Below, one piece after another: positions 1-62,935 of a stretch of 64,000 nt of DNA (position 1 is the stretch's first letter; each line of letters starts with the position of its first letter). A model generated the notes under the pieces. It saw only the letters and a list, made by a program, of their open reading frames with translations. It ran no database searches and was not told where the DNA came from. Both the position numbers and the translations under genes were made by a program. The DNA comes from Neoroseomonas eburnea (GTDB lineage Bacteria > Pseudomonadota > Alphaproteobacteria > Acetobacterales > Acetobacteraceae), in contig NZ_JAAEDL010000025.1 of the NCBI RefSeq assembly GCF_018129005.1, positions 1-64,000 of the forward strand, given 5' to 3'.

Positions 1-495
1 GATTGCCGCGCCGGCGCGGGGAAGTACGCTGCGGCCACGACGCCCGGAAGGAAATCCGGCCTTCGAGCGTGGCGCTTCCTTGGTTGCCGCGGAATACCTG
101 CTCTGCCCGACACCAGGTGATGGTTTCCAAAGGCCCTTCGGCCTTTGGTGGGGAGAGGTCCGGAGAGGGGCAAAGCCCCTCTCCGCTTCCCTCATCGCCC
201 CATGTTCGCGCGCATGGGGCAAGGCCCCATCGACCCCCCCCCGGCAAGGGCCGGAGGGCCTTTGCGAACCGCCACCTCGCGCCAAGCGCCGCGCTCGGAA
301 GCGGTGCCGGAACGCGGCTCCGGGCATGCATCAGCCGCGACGGTTCCGGACAGCCCACGGTGCCGCGGGGGCCAAGGCAAGGTGTCCAAGAGACCCGCGG
401 CCCTTGGTGGGGCGGTCGGGAGGGGCAGGCCCCCGCGATTCCGCTGCACATGTTCGCGTGGGCAGGTCGATCCTCCGTCCCGCCCGTTGCCTCTC
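1..495. other. Gene-free window edge with repeats
   Basis: No convincing gene is visible before the glnD stop codon. Open frames here are long only because the DNA is very GC-rich, and their residue composition is Arg/Pro/Ala-rich with no recognisable domain. The stretch holds a reversed copy of repeat family A (about 119-272), followed by further GC-rich palindromic sequence. In many alphaproteobacteria murJ follows glnD; it is not visible here. Confidence 0.6.
119..272 (-). repeat. Repeat family A copy, reversed
   Basis: Contains the family A signature in reverse orientation: the CCAAAGGCC-type hairpin followed by a GAGAGGGGC/GCCCCTCTC hairpin, then a second arm with a related GGAGGGCCTTTG sequence. 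Nearly the same bases, reverse-complemented, occur at 6465 and 40045. It lies downstream of glnD. Confidence 0.7.
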
Positions 496-6051: not shown

Positions 6052-6459
6052 ATGCGACCCGAAGGGCTCGACCACGCGACGTTGCGCTGCCGGCCGCAGG
6101 ACCTGCCGGCGGCGCTCGCCTTCTACCGCGATCTGCTCGGCCTGCAGGAAGGTCCGCGGCCCGCCTTCGACTTCCCGGGCCACTGGCTCTACGCCGGCGG
6201 GCGGGCCGTGCTGCACCTGGCTGCGCGCCAGGACGCGGCGCCGCCGGCCGGACCCTCGGCGGGGGCGAGCTTCGAACACATCGCCTTCCGCCTGCGCGGC
6301 CTCGCGAAGGTGCGGGAGGAACTGGCCGCCCACGGCACGGCCTTCGTCGAGCAGCCACTGCCGGGGATGCCGGTGATGCAGCTCTTCCTGACGGACCCGT
6401 TCGGGCTGCGGGTGGAACTGAACTTCGACATGACGGACGCGGCGAACGCAGAGGGGTGA
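6052..6459 (+). CDS. VOC/glyoxalase-superfamily protein
   Basis: A 135-residue vicinal-oxygen-chelate protein, typical single-module length. It begins LDHATLRCRPQDLPAALAFYRDLLGL and ends DPFGLRVELNFD, the usual first and last strands of a betaalphabetabetabeta module pair. Family members are metal-dependent lyases, isomerases, dioxygenases or resistance proteins; the substrate cannot be read here. The start ATG follows GGGAGGGACGG, a good ribosome site. It diverges from mutS, with 42 bp between the two start codons. A family A repeat begins just after its stop. Confidence 0.85.
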   Translation: MRPEGLDHATLRCRPQDLPAALAFYRDLLGLQEGPRPAFDFPGHWLYAGGRAVLHLAARQDAAPPAGPSAGASFEHIAFRLRGLAKVREELAAHGTAFVEQPLPGMPVMQLFLTDPFGLRVELNFDMTDAANAEG

Positions 6460-6462
6460 CGG

Positions 6463-6702
6463 CGGGTCCCGGAGAGGGGCTTTGCCCCCCTTCCGGACCT
6501 CCCCCCACCAAAGGCCGAAAGGCCTTTGGAAACCATGAGATCCATCAGGAATATCGGGGAAGGGCGGCACCGGCGCACCTGGCATCACAGGTGCGCCAGA
6601 CCCGCCCTCGAACCCCCAGACAATGTCCCGGTGTCCAGAGGCCTTTCGGCCTCTCGCGGGCGGGGTCCGGGGAGGGCAGCGCCCTCCCCGCGGTTCCCAT
6701 GC
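6463..6702 (+). repeat. Repeat family A, full-length copy
   Basis: About 240 bp filling the gap after the VOC gene. Layout: hairpin GGAGAGGGGC/GCCCCCCTCC, hairpin CCAAAGGCC-GAAA-GGCCTTTGG, a variable middle with a GGCGCACCTG/CAGGTGCGCC pairing, hairpin AGAGGCC-TTTC-GGCCTCT, hairpin GGGAGGGC/GCCCTCCCC. The first 65 bases or so are identical to the copy at 40045. The two ends are imperfect reverse complements, so the whole element is one large nested palindrome. A bidirectional terminator role is plausible but inferred. Confidence 0.85.
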
Positions 6703-12837: not shown

Positions 12838-13035
12838 GCGGCTGAACCGGCATCATCCAGCGGTCGCCGTTCGCGACCGCTGGGATCCGTCCCTTCACAC
12901 CCTCAGACGCGTCGTGGCGGAGGCACGCCTCAGACGCGCAAGCCTCCAGTCTGCTTGGCTTCGCCGGACCTCCGACGGGCCGCGGTCGCAGCCCCGGCAC
13001 GAGCCACGGCAAGGGCTCACCAACCTCGGCTGAAA
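12838..13035. repeat. Repeat family D copy
   Basis: Shares with 51248 and 62735 the sequence AGCGGTCGCCGTTCGCGACCGCTGG (hairpin AGCGGTCGC/GCGACCGCT), then CCCTCAGACGC, CTGCTTGGCTTCGCCGGA, and a hairpin around the final CGGCACGAG. Together with flanking bases it fills the gap between the DUF488 gene and the convergent propeller gene. Confidence 0.65.
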
Positions 13036-14863: not shown

Positions 14864-14996
14864 AGGTCGGGGGAGGGGAACCTCCCCCGATCTCCCTCCC
14901 TTCCTTGTCACCTGGGAACTGACCTCCGAAGTCAGCTCCCAGGCGACGAGGAAGGCTGAGGGAGGTCCGGGGGGAGAAGTCCCCTTCTCCCCCCGC
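14864..14996. repeat. Repeat family B copy
   Basis: Opens GGGGGAGGGGAACCTCCCCC (hairpin), continues with a central hairpin CTGGGAACTGAC/GTCAGCTCCCAG, and ends with a mirrored GGGGAGAAGTCCCCTTCTCCCC hairpin. Same architecture as 26460, 39298 and 52018. It lies between the convergent lipoprotein and HAD genes, where a two-way terminator would be useful. Confidence 0.8.
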
Positions 14997-15653
14997 CTAC
15001 ATCCCCAACAGCGCCGGCAGCGCCGCGAAATCCCCGAACGGCTCCGCCCCATGGGCCGCGAGCACGCCGCCCGGCGTCTCCCGCGCGAATCCCAGCACGC
15101 GGCATCCCGCGGCGATCCCGGCGCGCACGCCGGGCACGCTGTCCTCGATCACCACGCAGTCCTGCGGCGCCGCCCCGCAGGCTGCCGCGGCGGCCAGGTA
15201 GATGTCCGGCCAGGGCTTCGGCCGGTCCACGTCCTCGAAGGAAAAGACGCGCTCGGCGAAGACATGCGCGAGGTCGAGCGAGCGCATCTTCGCCACCAGT
15301 TCCGCCCGCGCCGAATTGGACGCGACGGCCACCGCCAGCCCCGCTGCCGCGCAGGCGCGCACCGCCTCCGGCGCGCCGGGGATTGCGGGCGTGCGCATCG
15401 TCATCTCGTGCGCGATCAGGGTCGAGATCTCCTCCGCCCAGCCCGGCGGCAGCGGGCCGACGCGCGCCTCGATGCGCGGGACCATGTCGGGGAGCGCCAT
15501 GCCGAGAAAGGTCTCGCGCGACTGCGCGGCGGTGAGCGGCCAGCCGAGGGTGGTGAGCTGGTCGGCGACGATGGCGTTCACCACCATCTCGCTGTCGGCG
15601 AGGACGCCGTCGCAGTCGAACAGGACGGCGCGCGGGCGGCGGGGTGGCGTCAC
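14997..15653 (-). CDS. HAD-superfamily phosphatase (beta-phosphoglucomutase/GPH-like)
   Basis: 218 residues from a GTG whose bases overlap the hemH stop (GTGA, 4 bp), so translation is coupled to ferrochelatase. Motif I LFDCDGVLADSE has nucleophile D13 and acid/base D15. Motif II is VASNSA, and motif IV is VIEDSVPGVRAG. The helical cap between motifs I and II is subclass IA, as in phosphoglycolate phosphatase and beta-phosphoglucomutase. The substrate cannot be assigned from sequence alone. Confidence 0.88.
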   Translation of the reverse strand: MTPPRRPRAVLFDCDGVLADSEMVVNAIVADQLTTLGWPLTAAQSRETFLGMALPDMVPRIEARVGPLPPGWAEEISTLIAHEMTMRTPAIPGAPEAVRACAAAGLAVAVASNSARAELVAKMRSLDLAHVFAERVFSFEDVDRPKPWPDIYLAAAAACGAAPQDCVVIEDSVPGVRAGIAAGCRVLGFARETPGGVLAAHGAEPFGDFAALPALLGM

Positions 15654-16794: not shown

Positions 16795-16938
16795 CAGAGC
16801 CCGATCGAGAATGCGCCGAACGGCGCATTCTCGACGCCGGCACGGGCCCAGACCCCCACCCGGCCACCCATCAGGGATACTGTCGTCGGGTGGACGGGTG
16901 GGGGCCTGGGCCCGTGCCGGCATTCTCAAACGGCTCTC
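16795..16938. repeat. Repeat family C copy
   Basis: Starts AGAGCCCGATCGAGAATGCGCC and ends AAACGGCTCTCAG, so the ends are inverted repeats (GAGCC/GGCTC). Inside is a hairpin GAGAATGCGCC/GGCGCATTCTC and a long pairing between CGGGCCCAGACCCCCACCCG and the CGGGTGGGGGCCTGGGCCCG type sequence downstream. It separates hemH and secB. Confidence 0.75.
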
Positions 16939-18602: not shown

Positions 18603-18742
18603 GAGCCCGTCTGGAAACGCGTCTCGCGGCGCGTTTCCGGGTCCGACACCGGCCCGCACCCGGCCACCCTTTCCAGCATGCTGACGTCGGTGGCCGGATG
18701 GGGGTGCGGGCCGGTGCCGGATTCTCCAAGCGGTCTCTGAGC
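18600..18742. repeat. Repeat family C copy at a stop codon
   Basis: The TGA of the Bug gene forms the first bases of the element (TGAGAGCCCG), exactly as at 61021. It contains GGAAACGCG/CGCGTTTCC and CACCGGCCCGCACCC/GGGTGCGGGCCGGTG pairings and ends CAAGCGGTCTCTGAG, the inverse of its start. Confidence 0.8.
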
Positions 18743-20839: not shown

Positions 20840-20946
20840 GGGCGTCGGAGAGTGGCTTTGCCCTTCTCCGGATTTCTCTCCACCACAGGCCCTTCGGCCT
20901 TTGGCGGGGGAGGTCCGGAGGGGGCAGCGCCGCCTCCGCGTGCCCG
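20840..20946. repeat. Repeat family A, short copy inside an operon
   Basis: GGAGAGTGGCTTTGCCCTTCTCC hairpin, CACAGGCCCTTCGGCCTTTGG hairpin and GGAGGGGGCAGCGCCGCCTCC hairpin. It occupies the gap between the DUF993 and TIM-barrel genes, which are on the same strand; a strong hairpin here could lower expression of the downstream genes or stabilise an mRNA end. Confidence 0.7.
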
Positions 20947-24535: not shown

Positions 24536-26521
24536 GTGACGCTGCGCCTCCGCCTTCTCGGCGGCTTCGAGGCCGTGCGGGAGCGCGGGAGGCTGCGCCC
24601 GACGACCCGCAAGGCGGCGGCGCTGCTGGCGCTGCTCGGCCTGCGGCCGGGCATCCCTGTGCCGCGCGCACGCCTCGCCGCCCTCCTCTGGCCGGAGAGC
24701 GGGGAGGCCGCGGCGCGCACCAGCCTGCGCCAGGCGCTGGCGATGCTGCGCAAGGACCTCGGCGAGGGTTCGCCTCTGCCGGTCGCCGAGGGCGACGACC
24801 TGCTGCTGCCGGCCGACCAGGTCGAGAGCGACGTTGCCGCCTTCGAGCGCGCCCTTGCCGACCCATCCCGGCTGGCGGAAGCCGCCGCACTGCATGCGGG
24901 CGAACTCCTCGCCGGCTTCGACGCCGGCAGCGATGCCTTCGAGGATTGGCGCCGCGACGAGGCCGCCCGGCTGCGCGACCGCCTGGCCGCCGCGCTCGGC
25001 GCCGCACTGGCTCAGGCAGGGGGCGCATCGGCCACCACCCTCGCCACCGCGCTGCTCACCGTCGAGCCGGCCGCCGAGGATGCGCATCAGGCGTTGATCC
25101 GCGCGCATCTCGCCGAAGGCGCGCTCGGTGCCGCGATGCGGCAATACGCGAAGTGCCGGGACGCGCTGCAGCGCGAGTTCGGCGTGCCGCCGTCCCCGGC
25201 CACCGAGGAGCTGCGCGCCCGCATTCGCGCCCCGCAGGCCCAGGAAGGCGAGGGCGACGACCGCCCGGCGCTTGCCGTGCTGCCCTTCACGGACCTCTCC
25301 GACGACCCGGCGCATGGCTGGCTGGCGCAGGCCTTCGCGGAAGACCTGACCGCCGCCCTCTCCCGCTTCCGCGTGCTGCACGTCGTCGCTGCCGCCTCCG
25401 TCGCGGCGGCGCACGAACCGGGCGCGCCGATGACCGAGACCGCGACGCGGCTCGGCGCGCGCTACCTGCTCACCGGCAGCCTGCGGCGCGCCGGGACGCA
25501 GGTGCGCCTGACCGCGGACCTGACGGATGTGCGGGAAGGGCGGCACCTGTGGGCGCAGCGCCTCGACCTGCCGGCGGACCGGCTGCCGGCGATCGAGGAT
25601 GAGATGGTCGCGGCCATCGCCGGCACCCTCGCCAAGCGGCTCGAACAGAACCTGGTGCGCGAGGCGCGCCAGCGGCCCGCTGCCGACCTGCGCGCCTGGG
25701 AATGCTGGCTGCGCGGCCTGTTCCTGCTGCGCACCGGCGATGAGGCCCGCGCGCGCGAAGCGGAGGCGCTGTTCCGCCGCGCCCTCGACCTCGACCCAGG
25801 CTTCGCGCGCGCCGAGGCCGGGCTGTCCCTCGTCAACTTCAACGACTGGTCCTGCATGGCCTGGGACCGCTGGACGGAGCGCGAGCACGGCGCCTTCACC
25901 CACGCCCAGCGCGCCGTCGCGCTCGACGAGTCGGACCCGCTCGCGCACATGATCCTCGGCCGGGTCTTCCTCTATCGCCGCGACTTCGACCGCGCGGACC
26001 ACCACCTTGCGCGCGCCGAGGCGCTCAACCCGCACGACGCCGACCTGCAGACGCAGCTCGCGCTCACCCACTGCATGCTCGGGCGGCCGGAGCAGGGGCG
26101 GGATGCCGCGGCGCTCGCGGCCAGGCTGAACCCGTTCCATGACGACTGGTACTTCGCCTATGCGGCGATCCCGGCCTTCTGCCTTGGCGACTACCGCGGT
26201 GCGCTCGCGCTGGCGGACCGCGCGCCGGAGATCGCGACGGACATGGAGGCCTGGCGGGCGGCGGCGCTGGCGCATCTCGGGCGCCTCGATGACGCCGCGG
26301 CGGCGCTGGAACGCTTCCAGGCGCGCTTCCGCGAGCGCATCACCTTCGGGCGCGCTCCGAAGCCGGGAGAGGCGGCGCGCTGGCTCGCGCATGTGAACCC
26401 GTTCCGACGGGCGGAAGATCTGGCACGGCTGATGGACGGCGCGAGAAAGGCAGGGTTGGAAGACGGGGGGAAGAGAACTTCCCCCCGAACCCCCCAACCT
26501 TTTTTGAGACCTGGGGACTGA
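24536..26521 (+). CDS. BTAD-type transcriptional regulator with TPR domain
   Basis: 661 residues from a GTG (VTLRLRLLGGFEAVRERGRLR). Domains: OmpR/SARP-like winged helix (1-85, with RKAAALLALLGLRPG and RTSLRQALAMLRKDL), bacterial transcriptional activation domain (about 90-220, ending MRQYAKCRDALQREFGVPPSPATEEL), a TolB-like/adenylate-cyclase-associated segment (245-370, LAVLPFTDLSDDPAHGWLAQAFAEDL), then TPR repeats (about 380-600). This arrangement is seen in large proteobacterial BTAD regulators. It is divergent from the catabolic operon, so it is a candidate regulator, though BTAD proteins usually bind direct repeats. The last residues (about 643-661) are encoded by a family B repeat. Confidence 0.85.
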   Translation: MTLRLRLLGGFEAVRERGRLRPTTRKAAALLALLGLRPGIPVPRARLAALLWPESGEAAARTSLRQALAMLRKDLGEGSPLPVAEGDDLLLPADQVESDVAAFERALADPSRLAEAAALHAGELLAGFDAGSDAFEDWRRDEAARLRDRLAAALGAALAQAGGASATTLATALLTVEPAAEDAHQALIRAHLAEGALGAAMRQYAKCRDALQREFGVPPSPATEELRARIRAPQAQEGEGDDRPALAVLPFTDLSDDPAHGWLAQAFAEDLTAALSRFRVLHVVAAASVAAAHEPGAPMTETATRLGARYLLTGSLRRAGTQVRLTADLTDVREGRHLWAQRLDLPADRLPAIEDEMVAAIAGTLAKRLEQNLVREARQRPAADLRAWECWLRGLFLLRTGDEARAREAEALFRRALDLDPGFARAEAGLSLVNFNDWSCMAWDRWTEREHGAFTHAQRAVALDESDPLAHMILGRVFLYRRDFDRADHHLARAEALNPHDADLQTQLALTHCMLGRPEQGRDAAALAARLNPFHDDWYFAYAAIPAFCLGDYRGALALADRAPEIATDMEAWRAAALAHLGRLDDAAAALERFQARFRERITFGRAPKPGEAARWLAHVNPFRRAEDLARLMDGARKAGLEDGGKRTSPRTPQPFLRPGD

Positions 26522-26588
26522 CTTCCGCTGTCAGTTCCCAGGTGACAGAGAAGGGAGGGGGTTTGGGGGAGGTTCACCCTCCCCCAAC
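26460..26588. repeat. Repeat family B copy overlapping a gene end
   Basis: GGGGGGAAGAGAACTTCCCCCC hairpin, a CCTTTTTT tract, central CTGGGGACTGAC/GTCAGTTCCCAG hairpin, and a final GGGGGAGGTTCACCCTCCCCC hairpin. The TGA of the BTAD regulator is the TGA inside the central hairpin, so about 60 bp of the element are translated. The convergent TTC38-like gene ends just beyond. Confidence 0.85.
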
Positions 26589-38444: not shown

Positions 38445-38570
38445 CTCTCGGCTTGTCTCGGGCAATTCAAAAGGTAGGGAGCGGCATCACGCCGGTCAAC
38501 GCCCGGGGGCTGGACGCGAGCCGGCCGGATCGCCATTTTCCGCCGCTTGCACCCCCGAGGAACCCTGCCC

Positions 38571-39287
38571 ATGCGCCCTTCCGGCCGCGAACCCGGCGCG
38601 CTGCGCGCCGTCAGCCTGACCCCCGGCGCCGCCCGCCATGCCGAAGGATCCTGCCTCATCCGCATGGGCGTGACCGAGGTGCTCTGCACCGCCAGCGTCG
38701 AAGGCAAGGTGCCGCCCTTCCTGCGCGGCCAGGGGCAAGGCTGGGTAACAGCCGAATACGGCATGCTGCCGCGCGCCACCCACACCCGCGGCGACCGTGA
38801 GGCCGCCCGCGGCAAGCAGTCCGGCCGCACGCAGGAGATCCAGCGCCTGATCGGCCGCTCGCTCCGCGCCGTCACCGACATGAAGGCGATGGGCGAGATG
38901 TCCGTCACCATCGACTGCGACGTGCTGACCGCCGATGGCGGCACGCGCTGCGCCTCCATCACCGGCGCCTGGGTGGCCCTGCACCTCGCCTTCGAGCATT
39001 GCCGGCGAATGAACATCCTCACCCGCAACCCGCTGCGCGACCAGGTCGCCGCCGTCTCCTGCGGGGTGTTCCAGGGCACGCCGGTGCTCGACCTCGATTA
39101 TGCCGAGGACAGCAAGGCCGATGCCGACGCGAATTTCGTGCTGACCGGCGCCGGCGGCATCGTGGAGGTGCAGGGCACCGCCGAAGGAGCACCCTTCACC
39201 GATGCTGAGCTGCTGGCGCTGCTCGGCCTGGCGCGGTCCGGCACGGCCGAGCTGTTCGCGAGGCAGCGGGAGGCGGTGGGGCTGTGA
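38571..39287 (+). CDS. rph: Ribonuclease PH
   Basis: Phosphorolytic 3'-5' exoribonuclease for tRNA 3'-end maturation; 238 residues. It starts [19 protein letters not shown]; the R-x3-R-E-P-type start is usual for the family. Phosphate-binding and active-site motifs: [31 protein letters not shown] and [19 protein letters not shown], with catalytic Asp residues in [14 protein letters not shown]. The ATG at 38571 follows CGAGGAACC. First of two genes in the rph-rdgB set. Confidence 0.97.
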
Positions 39288-39297
39288 CACGCGCCGA

Positions 39298-39421
39298 AGA
39301 AGCGCGGGGGAGGGAACTCCCCCGCCCCCCCTCCTTTTTCCGTCTTTTGGGGACTGACAGCGGCGGGCAGCGCCAGGTGGCTGGGGAGTCCGGAGGAGGT
39401 TCTCCTCCCCCGGCCTTCGCG
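39298..39421. repeat. Repeat family B copy between rph and rdgB
   Basis: GGGGGAGGGAACTCCCCC hairpin, CCTTTTTCC, GGGGACTGACAGCGGCGGGCAGCGCC centre (degenerate), and GGAGGAGGTTCTCCTCCCCC hairpin. It separates two cotranscribed-orientation genes and ends two bases before the rdgB ATG, so it must be transcribed in front of rdgB and would place a hairpin over its ribosome site. Confidence 0.8.
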
Positions 39422-39423
39422 CC

Positions 39424-40038
39424 ATGAACCATCGTCGCCTCGCGCGTGGCGAGCGCATCGTCATCGCCACCCACAACAAGGGCAAGCTGCGGGAGGTGGC
39501 GGCGCTGCTCGCGCCCCACGGCATCGAGACGGTGAGCGCGGGCGAATTGAACCTGCCCGAGCCGGAGGAAACCGAGGAGAGCTTCCTCGGCAATGCCCGC
39601 ATCAAGGCCATGGCCGCGGCGCGCGCCGCCGGCCTGCCGGCGTTGGCGGATGATTCCGGCTTCTCCGTCGCCGCGCTGGCCGGCGCGCCGGGCGTGCGCA
39701 CCGCGGATTGGGCGATGCAGCCGGACGGCTCGCGCGACTACGCCGACGCCATGCGCAAGGTGATGGAAGCCGCGCAGGAATTCGAGGACCGCACGGCGTG
39801 GTTCTCCTGCGCGCTGGTGCTCGCCTGGCCGGACGGGCATGTCGAAGGCTTCGAAGGGCGCGCCATGGGCCATTGGGTCTGGCCGCCGCGCGGACAGCAC
39901 GGCTTCGGCTACGATCCGATGTTCGTGCCGAACGGGCGGGACGAGACCTTCGGGGAGATGGATCCGGCGGAGAAGCACCGCATCAGCCACCGGGCGGCAG
40001 CCTTCGCGCTGCTGTCGGCGGCGTGTCTGCCAAGGTGA
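39424..40038 (+). CDS. rdgB: dITP/XTP pyrophosphatase RdgB (Ham1)
   Basis: Hydrolyses non-canonical purine nucleoside triphosphates to keep them out of DNA. 204 residues. Motifs: [13 protein letters not shown] (residues 13-25, the T/SxNxxK nucleotide site), [12 protein letters not shown] (catalytic Asp), and [20 protein letters not shown] near the C-terminus. The start ATG lies right after a family B repeat and lacks a clear ribosome site outside it. A family A repeat follows its stop by about five bases. Confidence 0.96.
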
Positions 40039-40042
40039 AGCG

Positions 40043-40266
40043 CGCCGGAGAGGGGCTTTGCCCCCCTCCGGACCTCCCCCCACCAAAGGCCGAAAGGCCT
40101 TTGGAAACCATGAGATTCACCAGGAATGTCGGGGAGGGGCGTCACCGGCGCATCCCGCGTCAAAGGTGCGCCATGCCCCTCCCCGGCATCCCGGACCATG
40201 TCCCGGTGTCCAGAGGCCTTTCGGCCTCTGGCGGGTGGGGTCTGGGGAGGGCAGCGCCCTCCCCGC
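40043..40266 (+). repeat. Repeat family A, full-length copy
   Basis: Nearly identical to 6463-6702: about 65 identical bases at the left end, then a variable centre, then the AGAGGCC-TTTC-GGCCTCT and GGGAGGGC/GCCCTCCCC hairpins. It starts right after the rdgB stop and ends about 50 bases before rpe. Confidence 0.85.
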
Positions 40267-40315
40267 TCGCGTCACCCGGTTGTCCCTGCCGAACGCTAGC
40301 GGCTACAACCGATTC

Positions 40316-40975
40316 GTGGCCCCACCGCTGATCGCCCCTTCACTGCTCGCCGCCGACTTCGCCCGCCTGGGGGAGGAGGTGGAGACCGTCGCCGCCGCCG
40401 GCGCCGACTGGCTGCACCTCGACATCATGGATGGGCACTTCGTGCCCAACATCTCCTTCGGTCCCGTCGTGGTGAAGGCGTTGCGCAAGCGCGCCGCCAT
40501 TCCCTTCGACGTGCACCTGATGATCGCCCCCGCCGACCCCTACCTGGCGGCCTTCGCCGAGGCCGGGGCGGACTGGATCTCCCTGCACCCGGAAGCCGGC
40601 CCGCACCTGCACCGCTCGCTGCAGACCATTCGCGCCCTGGGGAAGAAGGCCGGCGTGGTGCTCAACCCGGCGACGCCGGTCGAGAGCGTCGCGCATGTCC
40701 TGGACCTCACGGATCTCATTCTTGTGATGTCGGTGAACCCGGGTTTCGGCGGGCAGTCCTTCCTGGACAGCCAATTGCCCAAGATCGCCGCGCTGCGCCG
40801 GATGATCGATGCTTCCGGCCGCGACATCCGGCTGCAGGTCGATGGCGGCGTCACCGCCGCGACGGCGCCGCGCTGCATCGCGGCCGGGGCCGACGTGCTG
40901 GTGGCCGGCACGGCGGTGTTCGGCCAGAAGGACTACGCCGCGGCCATCGCCGCCATCCGCGGGGCGCCGGCATGA
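40316..40975 (+). CDS. rpe: Ribulose-phosphate 3-epimerase
   Basis: Interconverts ribulose 5-phosphate and xylulose 5-phosphate. 219 residues from a GTG ([21 protein letters not shown]); the protein clearly begins there and no ATG fits. TIM-barrel motifs: [19 protein letters not shown] (metal Asp/His), [21 protein letters not shown] and [12 protein letters not shown]. Its TGA overlaps the next ATG (ATGA), coupling it to the heparinase-family gene. Confidence 0.95.
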
Positions 40976-42630
40976 TCGGCATCCTGCGCGGCGCCCGGCA
41001 GAAGCTGGCGCGGCTGCGCCCGGTTCGCGTGCCTGAGGCGCCGGCCCGCGCCTTCCGCGACCTCTGGCCCGGCGATGCCGCCCGCGGCGCCCGCCTGCTG
41101 CGCGGCGAATTCGAGACGCTCGGCACGGCGCGCCTGCTCCGCCCCGGCATGGACGGCGCGGAGGGCTGGGACACCGCCTCCGGCACGCCGGCCTGGCGCG
41201 CCGCCGCCCATGGCTTCACCTGGATGCGGGACCTGCGCGCGCTCGGCACTGATGCGGCAAGGCTGCATGCCCGCGCGCTGACCGCCGACTGGCTCGCGCG
41301 CGGCGCCGAGGAATCCGTCGCCGACGCGCCGGAGGTCGCGGGCAGCCGCCTGTCCGCCTGGCTCGGCCACTGGGACTTCTTCGCCGCCACCGCCGAGGAT
41401 TCCTTCCGCCGCGCGGTGATGACGCGGCTCGCGCAGGATGCCCGCGACCTTTCCGCCGCCCTGCCCGCCGAGGCCGAGCACCGCGGCGCGCTCGCCGCGC
41501 TCAAGGGCGCCATGGCGGCGGCGATCGCGCTGGAGGAGGACGCCTACCTCCAGCGCGCCGCCCGCTTCCTGCCCGCCGAGATCGAACGCCAGTTCCACCC
41601 CGATGGCGGGCATGTGGAACGCTCGCCCTCGATGCAGCTCCTGGCGCTGCAGGACCTCATCGAGATCCGCAACCTGCTCCATGGCGCGGGCATGGAACCG
41701 CCGCCGCACTTGGCCGCCGCGCTCGACCGCGCGGCGCCGGCGCTGCGGCTGTTCCGGCACGGGGATGGCGGCCTCGCGCTGTTCAACGGCACGCGGGACG
41801 AATCCTCGGCGCTGCTCGACCTGGTGCTGACGCAGGGCCAGGCGCGCGGGCGGGCGCCGCTCGACCTGCCGGAGACCGGCTTCCAGCGGCTGCAGGCCGG
41901 GCGCACGCTGGTCATCGTCGATACCGGCGCGCCGCCGGCCGGGCGTGCCGATGCGGGGGATGGCGGCCTGCCCGCCGGTGCCGACCGCTACGCCCATGCC
42001 GGCACGCTCGCCTTCGAGATGTCGGTCGGGCGCGACCGGCTGATCGTGAACTGCGGCGCCGCACCGGCCGCCGAGGATTCCTGGCGCGACGCGCTGCGCT
42101 CCACCGCCGCGCATTCCACGCTGGTGCTGTCCGACACCAATTCGAGCGAGCTGCGGCCCGAGGGCCTCGGCCGCCGCCCCGGACAGGTCGAGACCGCCCG
42201 CCACGAGGCCGCCGGCGCGCAATGGCTGGAAGCGAGCCACGACGGCTGGCGCCGGAGCTTCGGCGCGGTGCATCGGCGCCGGCTCTACATGGCGGAATCC
42301 GGCGACGACCTGCGCGGCGAGGACATGGTCGAGGTGGCCGGCGACGCCGCCCTGCCGCCCTTCCTGCTGCGCTTCCACCTGCACCCGGGGGTCGTCGCCT
42401 CCCTGTTGCAGGACGAGAGCGCGGCGCTGCTGCGCCTCCCCTCGGGCATCGGCTGGAAGATCCGCGCCAAGGGGGCGCGGGTCGCGCTGGAGGAGAGCGT
42501 GTACCTCGGGCTCGAGCCGCGGCGTTCCAACCAGGTGGTGCTGGTGGCGGAAGAAGGCGAAACCTCGGTGCAGTGGGCGATCACGCGCGTGTCGATGCCG
42601 ACGCCCGGGGTGGCAGCGCCAGAGGAATGA
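40972..42630 (+). CDS. Heparinase II/III family protein
   Basis: 552 residues, start ATG overlapping the rpe stop by 4 bp. N-terminal alpha/alpha toroid (about 30-330; [45 protein letters not shown]), then a heparinase II/III-type beta-sandwich (about 340-540; [24 protein letters not shown], with [19 protein letters not shown]). There is no signal peptide, so despite the name it is not an obvious secreted polysaccharide lyase; this cytoplasmic-type version occurs beside rsmB or purH in many alphaproteobacteria and its substrate is unknown. Confidence 0.9.
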
Positions 42631-42635
42631 AGCTG

Positions 42636-42845
42636 CGGCGGAGAGGGGCGCCGCCCCTCTCCGAACCTCTCCCCGCCAAGGGCTCGAGGCCCTTGGGACC
42701 CCTTGCATGGGCGCCCGGGCAAGGTGCGCCACCGATGCCGGGCATGCGCATCCCTTCCCCCCGACCGCCCCCCAAACTCCTGGTGTCCAGAGGCCTTTCG
42801 GCCTCTGGCGGGAGGGTCCGGGAGGGCAGCGCCCTCCCGGCACCG
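42636..42845. repeat. Repeat family A, diverged copy
   Basis: GGAGAGGGGCGCCGCCCCTCTCC hairpin, CCAAGGGCTCGAGGCCCTTGG hairpin, variable centre, AGAGGCC-TTTC-GGCCTCT and GGGAGGGCAGCGCCCTCCC hairpins. The stems differ from other copies by paired (compensating) changes, which preserve folding. It follows the heparinase-family stop by five bases. Confidence 0.8.
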
Positions 42846-42900
42846 CGTTGACGCCCGGCCTCGCCCGCCCGACCATCCGCCGCGCAACGGGAAAGATCGC

Positions 42901-44046
42901 GTGTCGTCCAATACCAGCGTGGCCAGGATCGGCGCCGCCGTCTTCGCGATCGGTTTCTCCACCACTCTCGCCATGCCGCTGTTCACCTCCTACGCCGCGC
43001 GCGATGGCGGCGGCGCGGGCGGCTTGTCGGCCGCCTTCGTCGCCTATGCCGCGACGCTGATCGTCACGGCGCCGCTGCTGGGCGGCCTGTCCGATCGCAT
43101 CGGGCGGAAGCCCTGCGTTCTGGCCGGCCTGGTGCTGGCGGGGTTGTCCACGCTCTCGCTCATGCTGGCGCCCGGGCTGGCGGCGCTCGCGGTCGCCCGC
43201 GTGCTCCAGGGGCTGGGGATCGGGCTGGTCGCCGGCGGCGCGACGGCCTGGGCGGCGGAACTCGCGACCGGGCCGGACGCCGCCCGGCGAGCGGCGCGCG
43301 TCATGGCCTTCGGTACGGCCGGGTCCTATGGCGCGGGCGCGCTGTCGACGCTGGCGGCGCTGTGGCTGCTGGGGGATGGCGAACCGCCGGTGACCTTCTG
43401 GCTGCACATCGCCGCGGTCGCGCTGCTGGTGCCGGTGGTGGCGCGGCTGCCGGACCGGCGGCCGGTCGCGCGCGTCGCCTGGCTGCGCCTGCCGGCCTTC
43501 CCGCGCGGCACGGTGGCGAGTTCCTTCGGCATGTTCGCCGCCTGGGGCGTGACCGGGGTGACGATCACCTCGGTGCCGAGCGCCCTCGCCGCGGCGGGGC
43601 ATCCGCGGCTGGGACCGCTGGCGGTGTGCTTCATGATCCTCGTGGGCACGGCGGTACAGCAGGCGATCGGCCACCTGCCCGCGCGGCGCCTGTCGCTGGT
43701 GGGCCTGCCGGTGCTGGGGGCGGGGGCGGGGCTGGTGATCCTCGGCACGCTGGGAGCGTCGCTGCCGCTGCTGCTGGCGGGCGGCGCGCTGGTCGGCAGC
43801 GCGGCCTACGGCTTCCTGTTCGTCGGCGCCCTGGCGGCGGCGAGCGAGGCGGCGGACGGCGGTGACCGCGCGCGGGCGGCGGCGGGGGTGTTCCTGGTCT
43901 CCCATGCCGGGTTCTGCGTGCCGCCGCTGCTGACCGGCCTGGCCGTCGATGCCTTCGGCGCGGCGGCAGCGCTGGCGGGGTTCTGGGCGGGGCTGACGGC
44001 ACTGTGCGCGGGGCTCGCGGCCGTGCTGTTGCGGCGGCGCGGCTAG
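42901..44046 (+). CDS. MFS transporter
   Basis: 381-residue, roughly 12-helix major facilitator permease. It opens from a GTG (VSSNTSVARIGAAVFAIGFSTTLAMPLF). The helix 2-3 signature GGLSDRIGRKPCV is intact, and VARVLQGLGIGLVAGGATAW is the helix 4 motif. It is short in the central loop. The substrate is unknown; it resembles drug/metabolite efflux members. The start is weakly supported (AAAGATCGC upstream), so the N-terminus may be slightly different. It is followed by the exonuclease gene after 19 bp. Confidence 0.85.
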   Translation: MSSNTSVARIGAAVFAIGFSTTLAMPLFTSYAARDGGGAGGLSAAFVAYAATLIVTAPLLGGLSDRIGRKPCVLAGLVLAGLSTLSLMLAPGLAALAVARVLQGLGIGLVAGGATAWAAELATGPDAARRAARVMAFGTAGSYGAGALSTLAALWLLGDGEPPVTFWLHIAAVALLVPVVARLPDRRPVARVAWLRLPAFPRGTVASSFGMFAAWGVTGVTITSVPSALAAAGHPRLGPLAVCFMILVGTAVQQAIGHLPARRLSLVGLPVLGAGAGLVILGTLGASLPLLLAGGALVGSAAYGFLFVGALAAASEAADGGDRARAAAGVFLVSHAGFCVPPLLTGLAVDAFGAAAALAGFWAGLTALCAGLAAVLLRRRG

Positions 44047-45054: not shown

Positions 45055-45120
45055 GCGGAGACCTGGGTGGCCGGGTGGGGGTGCGGGCCGGTGCCCGACT
45101 CTTCAAACGGTCTCTCACCG
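45055..45120. repeat. Repeat family C, half element
   Basis: GGTGGCCGGGTGGGGGTGCGGGCCGGTGCCCGACTCTTCAAACGGTCTCTCA matches the right half of the 18600 copy. The left half is not evident; the remainder of 44873-45054 holds GC-rich sequence with a GGGGGCG/CGCCCCC palindrome and no gene. Confidence 0.7.
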
Positions 45121-46185: not shown

Positions 46186-46680
46186 GTCGGCTGCGGCGCA
46201 CCGGTGTCAATCGCGACGCCGCGATGCCCGGCGGCGCCCGCCCGGCCCACCGGCCGGCATGCGGTCGCGGCTGGCGCGGGACGGTACTGCGCGTGGGGCG
46301 GCAGCCCGTGGGCACGGAGCGATCGCGGGGGAAGGGCGAAGGCGCCTTGCCCCTCCGCGCCACCCCGCCAAAGGCCACAGGGCTTCTGTCATACCAGCGG
46401 CACGAGTTCTTGCCTCGTGCCGAGGCCGCGAATGCGGCCCGGCGTCTGAGGGCAGGAAAAGCCTCATGCCAACGGTCGCGAATAGCGGCCGTTGGAAAAA
46501 GCGATTACCTGGCGCCGGGCCCATGGTCGGCGACCGGCAATGGCCGAACCGCCGTGCCGGGCGCCGATTCCCCGCGGTCCAGGGGCCCGCCGGCCCCTGG
46601 CGGGGTGGCTTGGAGGGGCAGAGCCCCTCCAGTCCCTGTGCACCCATAGGGAGGGCCTCGATGCCGCTTCATGCGGCCGT
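46186..46680. other. Gene-free stretch of nested repeats
   Basis: About 495 bp between two genes encoding the same exported domain. From 46330 a family A-like left arm (CCTTGCCCCTCCGCGCCACCCCGCCAAAGGCC), then a reversed family D copy, then a family A-like right arm (GGGGCCCGCCGGCCCC, GGAGGGGCAGAGCCCCTCC). No reading frame looks real. Confidence 0.6.
46388..46500 (-). repeat. Repeat family D, reversed, inside family A arms
   Basis: Reads CATACCAGCGGCACGAG, CCTCGTGCCGAGGCCGCG, GGCGTCTGAGGGC and ACGGTCGCGAATAGCGGCCGTTGG, the reverse complement of family D copies at 51248 and 62735. The flanking bases on each side look like the two halves of a family A element. Confidence 0.6.
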
Positions 46681-51133: not shown

Positions 51134-51465
51134 TGCCGGCCGGCCTTTCGGCTGATGCGCTATCGGAGTTTCGCCCGCGGCCGCCCCACCGCCCCCGCGC
51201 GCCATATCACCGAGCCTGGCCGATGAGGGCATCGGCAGGGCTTTTACCAGCGGCCGCCATTCGCGACCGCTGGTATCGGCCGTTTCATGCCCTCAGGCGC
51301 CGGGCGCAAACCTCCGGTCTGCTTGGCTTCGCCGGACCACCGGCGGTCCGCGTTCGCGGCCTCGGCACGGGTCAAGAACTCCTGCCGCACGCATCAGCGG
51401 CATGAGGGCTTCGCACCGTGCACCGCGCGTGGTGCCATGCGCCCCGACCGCCAGGGGGAAACAGC
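51134..51465. repeat. Intergenic region with repeat family D copy
   Basis: No gene. Family D core at about 51248-51410: AGCGGCCGCCATTCGCGACCGCTGG hairpin, CCCTCAGGCGCCGGGCGCAAACC, CTGCTTGGCTTCGCCGGA, ACCGGCGGTCCG, CTCGGCACGGG. The preceding bases (51178-51240) resemble those at 33410-33475. Confidence 0.65.
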
Positions 51466-52017: not shown

Positions 52018-52203
52018 GGTCGGGGGGGTGAACCTCCCCCGAACCGCCCACCGCCGGCGGCGTTGCCGGACAACGCCGCCGGGGACCCCAAGCCCCCCCC
52101 CCCCTTTTTCTCTGGCCCCCGGGAACCGACTTCGGCTGTCAGTTCCCAGGTGCCAAGGAAGGTTGGGGGGTTCGGGGGGAAGTTCCCTTCCCCCCGACCT
52201 TCC
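52018..52203. repeat. Repeat family B copy with extra hairpin
   Basis: GGGGGGGTGAACCTCCCCC hairpin, an additional GGCGGCGTTGCC-type hairpin (GCCGGCGGCGTT/AACGCCGCCGG), a run of 14 C then TTTTT, the central GGGAACCGAC/GTCAGTTCCC hairpin, and GGGGGGAAGTTCCCTTCCCCCC. Longest of the four B copies. Confidence 0.8.
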
Positions 52204-61023: not shown

Positions 61024-61096
61024 GAGCCCGGCCGGAGACGCGCCTTGCGGCGCGTTTGCGGACCGGTGCCGGACTTTCCAAACGGTCTCTCGGCGG
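61021..61096. repeat. Repeat family C, short copy at a stop codon
   Basis: TGAGAGCCCGGCCGGAGACGCG, GCGGCGCGTTTGCGG, CGGTGCCGGACTTTCC, AAACGGTCTCTCGG. It lacks the central long stem of the 18600 copy but keeps both ends, GAGAG and CTCTC. Confidence 0.75.
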
Positions 61097-62684: not shown

Positions 62685-62734
62685 AACGCCGCATTCTCGT
62701 GCCGGACCGGCCGAACGCCCCGCTGATCCCGACG

Positions 62735-62935
62735 GCCGCCATTCGCGACCGCTGGTATCCGTCTTTTCGTGCCCTCGGACGCCGGGCGCAAACCTCCGCC
62801 TTGCTTGGCTTCGCCGGAGCACCGGCGGGCCGCATTCCGGATCCTCGGTCACGTTGCAAGGCAAGGTGACAGGGTGCCCGTCGCGGCCTCGGCACGAGGC
62901 AGGAACTCGCGCCGCTGGTATGACATGACAGCGGG
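62735..62935. repeat. Repeat family D copy
   Basis: GACGGCCGCCATTCGCGACCGCTGG, CCCTCGGACGCCGGGCGCAAACC, CTTGCTTGGCTTCGCCGGA, GCACCGGCGGGCCG, CTCGGCACGAGG. It has an extra insertion (about 62835-62885) relative to 51248, including a TCACGTTGCAAGGCAAGGTGA pairing. Confidence 0.65.

Follow-up and report, generated by a model that had tools for sequence, protein, structure and literature searches.

Palindromic Repeats in the Window

The window, a stretch of 64,000 nucleotides at the start of contig NZ_JAAEDL010000025.1 of Neoroseomonas eburnea, carries several copies of a long palindromic repeat, here termed Family A, which are listed in Table 1 together with the parts of the copy at 6463. The first-pass annotation had described two almost identical copies, diverged ones near 119, 20840 and 42636, and a tendency of most copies to begin close to a stop codon, and these observations have held up. 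The two main copies (6463 and 40043) match at 87% of 215 ungapped positions, with left arms that are 99% identical over about 72 bases, and the diverged copies are present as one arm, a compressed form and a two-arm element, respectively. Copies 6463, 40043 and 42636 begin 8–11 bases past a stop. Each arm consists of two hairpins, H1 and H2, with a short C-rich stretch after each, the linker and the tail. Compared with dinucleotide shuffles, the folds of copies 6463 and 40043 have z-scores of −8.4 and −11.7, and no Rfam family has been matched at its gathering score anywhere in the window.

Table 1. Copies of Family A in the window and parts of the element at 6463. H1 and H2, hairpins of an arm.
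Feature	Position	Strand	Remarks
Family A element	6469–6690		Two arms flanking a palindromic core; starts ~10 bases past the stop of a gene ending at 6459
Left-arm H1 hairpin, 6463 element	6469–6496		CCGGAGAGGGGC-TTT-GCCCCCCTTCCGG
Left-arm linker ACCTCCCCCCA, 6463 element	6497–6507	−	Complement TGGGGGGAGGT would serve H1 as reverse-Hoogsteen strand; the minus strand has class I order, assigned from the triad-code tests and position
Left-arm H2 hairpin, 6463 element	6508–6529		CCAAAGGCC-GAAA-GGCCTTTGG
Left-arm tail AAACC, 6463 element	6530–6534	−	Complement GGTTT fits the H2 tract AAAGG by the same code
Variable palindromic core, 6463 element	6554–6611
Right-arm tail GGTGT, 6463 element	6630–6634	+	Fits AGAGG of its own H2
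Right-arm H2 hairpin, 6463 element	6635–6654
Right-arm linker CGGGCGGGGT, putative reverse-Hoogsteen strand, 6463 element	6657–6666	+	Class I order on the plus strand
Right-arm H1 hairpin, 6463 element	6667–6690		CCGGGGAGGGC-AGC-GCCCTCCCCG
Family A element	40045–40264		Between rdgB (39424–40038) and rpe (about 40316–40975), whose product is closest to Rpe of Roseomonas sp. AR75 (83%)
Family A element	42639–42840		Two arms of differing types
Compressed Family A element	20846–20938		H1, single H2, H1'
Single Family A arm	122–185	+	GGTTT-H2-TGGGGAGAGGT-CCGGAGAGGGGC-AAA-GCCCCTCTCCG; class I order on the plus strand
Degenerate two-arm Family A copy	214–436
Degenerate two-arm Family A copy	46338–46632

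Copy Number and Pairing of the Stems

Many copies genome-wide have been found with an arm profile, which has returned 151 arms in 1.64 Mb of the host genome. These arms form 104 elements, 47 with two arms and 57 with a single one, a density that is biased upward because contigs C4–C14 of the sampled stretches were picked for having matches. Contig C1 alone carries 14 elements in 498 kb, and the total for the genome is estimated at 150–400 (about 165 when extrapolated from C1, up to about 370 from the full sample).

The stems of these arms change in a concerted way. In 51 distinct arms, 92.9% of the stem cells are paired, compared with 33–62% in slid controls, and cells in which both partners have changed number 61 against 18.3 in shuffles. 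The covariation score of the same arms is 0.247 versus 0.146 after shuffling, a value reached in 0 of 500 trials.

A Third Stretch That Follows the Stems

The linker co-varies with H1 and is the reverse complement of neither H1 strand. In parallel orientation, its bases complement those of the H1 purine arm one by one, with the exception that an A may be opposed by A or by T. This match amounts to 0.855 over 68 unique pairs with 22 H1 types, compared with 0.670 for permuted pairs (z 13.6, 0 of 2000 permutations), a z that overstates independence as the copies share ancestry. Other relations (reverse complement, reverse, identity) have given z of 2.7 or less, and the outer flanks of H1, in 22 tests that covered all registers, have stayed at |z| of at most 3.5, versus z 17.8 for the inner linker. 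Opposite G of H1 the linker holds C in 1435 of 1466 cases, and opposite A it holds T (169), A (142) or another base (13). A code of this type, with A to A and G to C, also connects the tail with H2 (z 7.5, 0 of 2000), where the tract and tail combinations are AAAGG/AAACC, AGAGG/ACACC, AAGGG/AACCC and AGGGG/ACCCC. Since A of the H2 tract goes with A of the tail, i.e., T on the G-rich strand, this relation is a code rather than a mirrored copy.

On the G-rich strand the order is RH-spacer-R-loop-Y, in which RH is the reverse-Hoogsteen stretch and R and Y are the two strands of H1, and the triads are G over G·C and A or T over A·T. Such triads constitute the code of antiparallel purine-motif triplexes, and the order RH-R-Y has been termed class I (PMC4666352). 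The RH, R and Y stretches of Family A are located on one strand and follow this code, as expected of an intrastrand triplex. The pattern of deviations differs between the three strands: the distinct variants among 271 class I units deviate in R in 14 cases, in Y in 33 and in RH in 58. R is therefore the most constrained (p 0.008 versus Y, 1.6e-7 versus RH) and RH the least conserved, and R is the only one of the three to take part in both sets of contacts. Of the 33 Y deviations, 20 are G·T wobbles when read on the G-rich strand. Of 43 A·C occurrences in H1, seen on the strand of the C-rich linker, 42 co-occur with a linker C, so that on the G-rich strand RH remains matched to R; many of them belong to one subfamily that includes copies 6463 and 40043. 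Each arm of Family A thus likely folds as a DNA triplex on one strand.

Palindromes undergo correction by template switching, and the pairing might accordingly be kept by mutation, with a linker match that reflects base composition; or the conserved fold might be a G-quadruplex, as some arms fit the pattern GGG-N-GGG-TCC-GGG-A-GGG. Template switching is, however, unable to yield a linker that is a parallel complement and has A or T facing A, and base composition is excluded by the permutation and outer-flank controls. Stems with G runs of 4-2-2-4 or GGGGGAGAC make poor quadruplexes and nevertheless retain the code, which leaves explanations of this kind highly improbable.

Two Arms in One Element

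The full element contains a long inverted repeat, and its arms behave as separate units. Where the two arms of an element differ, the linker agrees with the H1 of the same arm (0.92) better than with that of the partner (0.69), the tail fits its own H2 (0.88) better than that of the partner (0.60), and the two arms of one element resemble each other only as random arm pairs do (0.723 versus 0.726). Consequently, the large palindrome is a by-product, and a palindrome between arms has been rejected as the conserved feature, as complementarity between them is not conserved. That unlike arms are preferred, as in a report on E. coli pairs, has also been rejected, the arms being random and not significantly unlike. 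The earlier proposal that preserved pairing reflects a fold that matters has been upheld in so far as the stems covary, whereas, as the favoured structure, a four-hairpin RNA or a long palindrome has given way to a DNA triplex in each arm.

Position Relative to Genes

Genes have been called by a custom codon-usage gene finder (80–89% coding). The 99 classifiable elements are located in convergent (37), co-directional (59) and divergent (3) gaps, compared with 202, 1057 and 201 of all gaps. Convergent gaps are thus favoured (p 2e-8) and divergent ones avoided (p 0.001, and 1e-7 versus gaps of at least 100 bases). In co-directional gaps the elements lie at medians of 38.5 bases past the upstream stop and 89 before the next start, and between several convergent gene pairs a single element spans the gap from stop to stop.

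That the elements so strongly favour convergent gaps and the 3' ends of genes would also be compatible with an element that acts at the RNA level, either as a bidirectional terminator or as a stabiliser of mRNA 3' ends, and so would the very stable RNA fold and the GAAA tetraloop that H2 has on one strand. However, none of the hairpins within 38500–43200, a region with two elements, is followed by the U-run of an intrinsic terminator, the transcribed strand has no excess of G·U over A·C (about 32 versus 33), and the single arms are not clearly oriented to transcription (20 versus 13). In Watson-Crick terms the linker code has no role, and RNA does not form purine-motif triplexes (PMC4666352). 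Taken together, the missing G·U/A·C asymmetry, the missing U-runs and the inability of RNA to form this triplex favour a DNA structure, and we consider an RNA-level element unlikely.

Distribution Across Genomes

Family A is essentially confined to Acetobacteraceae. The 76-base left arm occurs in 34 of 35 genomes of the genus and in 0 of 24 genomes of other families, and a covariance model has found matches, many of them weak, in 133 genomes of an order-level sample of 250 (35 of 58 genera), where all of the matches listed fall within the same family. At E 1e-5, a class-wide sample has provided one match only outside Acetobacteraceae, in genome G312. Full searches of twelve genomes from ten genera have given 6 to 150 scored matches each, and about ten other genera have new stems that keep the triad code, e.g., GGGAAGGGC with CCCATCCCG. 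A plasmid collection has given no match to Family A. First-look arm candidates range from 3 to 561 per genome of the genus and are low in most species of 3–4 Mb and high in most members of 5–6 Mb.

History and Spread

For the 6463 element an empty site exists, in agreement with the earlier expectation: it is missing in seven relatives (G005, G009, G013, G016, G032, G033 and G040), which keep the upstream gene of the locus and have intergenic sequence without an arm match. The rdgB-side element has a different form in G015, is decayed in G032 and G033 and is absent in most other relatives, and the gene order next to it differs among relatives. In the decayed copies 3' of rdgB (L169 in G033, L170 in G032), a hairpin CCCACGGAGGTTGC/GCAACCTCCGTGGG is inserted within H2.

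Near identity of the distant copies had been regarded as a sign of recent mobility or gene conversion, and the former is not supported by comparison with other loci. Arms are ~95% alike across unrelated loci and even species, and cores and flanks reach about 70–80%. Between G032 and G033, which are ~93.5% identical, most elements are common to both at the same sites, and the differences are mainly deletions of arms or cores and the exchange of an H1 module. In one element shared by these two genomes, H1 and linker have jointly changed from CGGGAGGGC/ACCCACCCG to CGGAGGGGC/ACCACCCCG, while H2, core and flanks have stayed nearly constant. A second joint change of H1 and linker has been seen in an element of G013 and G001 that shows few left-arm differences and a widely diverged core and flanks. 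The arms thus appear to be homogenised or strongly constrained, and near-identical arms therefore prove no recent movement. A recent burst in G013 has been dismissed, because only the arms are near-identical there and whole elements are mostly about 70–76% alike; a link of the elements to an inversion between G032 and G033, with one of four junctions at an element, has been discarded as too weak.

Two kinds of transposition have been considered. In a REP/BIME-like element mobilised by a RAYT (Y1/IS200-type) transposase, one would recognise the intergenic position, the palindromes, the high copy number and the inverted pairs next to single units, and the empty site and a copy number that is highly variable by species point in the same direction. 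Family A indeed resembles REP/BIME, GTAG and CGTC repeats (PMC3733652) in being a short palindromic intergenic repeat that occurs as singles and inverted dimers, but it possesses a third-strand stretch and a larger unit, and its arm consensus, inspected by eye, has neither GTAG nor CGTC at the foot. Moreover, the RAYT domain Y1_Tnp (PF01797) has 0 matches in the host genome and 16 genus members, in which controls have matched, conservation is found at the level of arms and not of entire elements, and CGTC repeats have been reported missing from Acetobacteraceae (PMC3733652). Target duplications, the boundaries being uncertain by a few bases, are not significant over 47 pairs (p 0.225), and the 6463 element has a suggestive GCGGGTCCC/GCGGTTCCC repeat only. 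Mobilisation by a RAYT is accordingly very unlikely. Inverted arms around a core, and again the empty site, could also be derived from a MITE or another non-autonomous DNA transposon with long inverted terminal repeats, and MITEs share with Family A the inverted arms, the non-coding nature and the dispersed occurrence. The lack of a significant target duplication holds here as well; arms within one element assort randomly, cores vary between copies, and single arms are no rarer than pairs (57 versus 47), so that we regard a MITE as quite improbable.

Comparison with Known Triplex Motifs

The closest comparison is offered by the TM-ECO/PIT/Box C motifs of E. coli and its relatives, with the class II consensus Y-R-RH of CCCTCNCCC N3-6 GGGNGAGGG N3 GGGNGAGGG (PMC4666352, and the studies of Hoyne and Maher cited therein). 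As in Family A, their Y, R and RH stretches are consecutive on one strand with G·G·C and A/T·A·T triads, the second loop has three bases, and the motifs are intergenic and sometimes form inverted pairs; their copy number is likewise highly variable among close relatives, and TM-ECO has been tied to genomic instability. Membership of Family A in this group has been ruled out, as it has the class I order RH-R-Y and does not match the consensus. Unlike TM-ECO, which is more often upstream of genes and shows "extraordinary" identity between copies (PMC4666352), Family A is located behind genes, its stems vary widely by triad-preserving changes, and an additional hairpin, followed by a five-triad tail that fits it, belongs to each arm. 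In vitro, stable triplexes have been obtained with class II TM-ECO oligonucleotides, whereas DMS footprints of the known motif in living E. coli have revealed no triplex protection; PIT elements have neither terminator nor promoter activity, and polymerase arrest by the class II motif has been seen in vitro (PMC4666352).

Other Repeats

A blind scan for class I motifs over the 1.64 Mb has found 125, of which 5 are in genes, against 0 in Markov shuffles. Family A contains 54 of them, and much of the remainder is in a second repeat, Family B. The latter is unrelated to Family A and has repeats of about 120 bases at 14868–15003, 26464–26585 and 52098–52195, with the core CTTGGGAACTGAC...GTCAGTTCCCAAG. 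Both of its ends are class I motifs, e.g., TTGGGGGG-TTC-GGGGGGAA-loop-TTCCCCCC, and the copies vary at these ends in a triad-preserving manner. One may speculate, at a low probability, that class I triplex hairpins are a common end of unrelated Acetobacteraceae repeats, such as Family A and the CTTGGGAACTGAC Family B, and that a machinery which recognises the triplex spreads or maintains the DNA that carries it. If true, this would represent a new kind of structure-addressed repeat.

Two further repeats have been seen in the window. A dispersed one (CCAGCGGCCGCCATTCGCGACCGCTGG ... GCGCAAACCTCCGG...TTGGCTTCGCCGG) is located at 12857–13006, 51240–51374 and 62722–62856, with 66–86% identity between copies and similar sequence also near 46400–46500. 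A third palindromic repeat, GGTGGCCGGRTGGGGGTGCGGGCCGGTGCC, with a common ...CAARCGGTCTCT end, is found at 18683–18738, 45060–45115 and 61035–61090, and the palindromes 18636–18721 and 16836–16921 belong with it.

Proposed Fold and Significance

In the proposed fold, the G-rich strand would read 5'-GGTTT-like stretch, H2, G-rich RH, spacer TCC, R, loop, Y-3', where R and Y pair to hairpin H1 and RH folds back antiparallel along R through reverse-Hoogsteen contacts. H2 and the tail would repeat this scheme with five triads, and a full element would comprise two such arms in inverted order with a variable core between them. When the G-rich strand is exposed in single-stranded form during replication or transcription, it may fold and stall polymerases. 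Such a structure would be harmless or useful only behind genes, where it might insulate convergent or neighbouring transcription units from each other. The arms may be spread and homogenised by copying between loci, for instance by conversion or template switching at stalled forks, with no dedicated transposase. On balance, we hold it to be probable that Family A is a non-coding DNA repeat of Acetobacteraceae whose arms can fold into intrastrand triplexes, a reading drawn from sequence comparison; the family may further act as a barrier or insulator and be copied from locus to locus. As the class II motif arrests polymerases in vitro and yet has no terminator or promoter activity, caution is required regarding a benefit to the host, which would consist in a polymerase barrier and insulation; Family A may as well be a tolerated parasite.

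No description of Family A has been found in a literature search, most subscription journals being outside its reach. Triplexes in bacteria have been predicted and seen in vitro, but in the literature searched we have not found them traced by co-evolving bases; the E. coli motif is nearly invariant and consequently offers little covariation signal. The issue addressed here is whether bacterial triplex motifs fold and matter in cells. With hundreds of copies and dozens of stem variants that follow the triad code, in its own genus and about ten others, and with the middle strand under the strongest constraint, Family A provides evolutionary evidence for a DNA triplex of the type commonly used for RNA structures. 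Its variants form a ready mutant series for physical tests, and the family as a whole may represent a natural case of such a structure behind genes.
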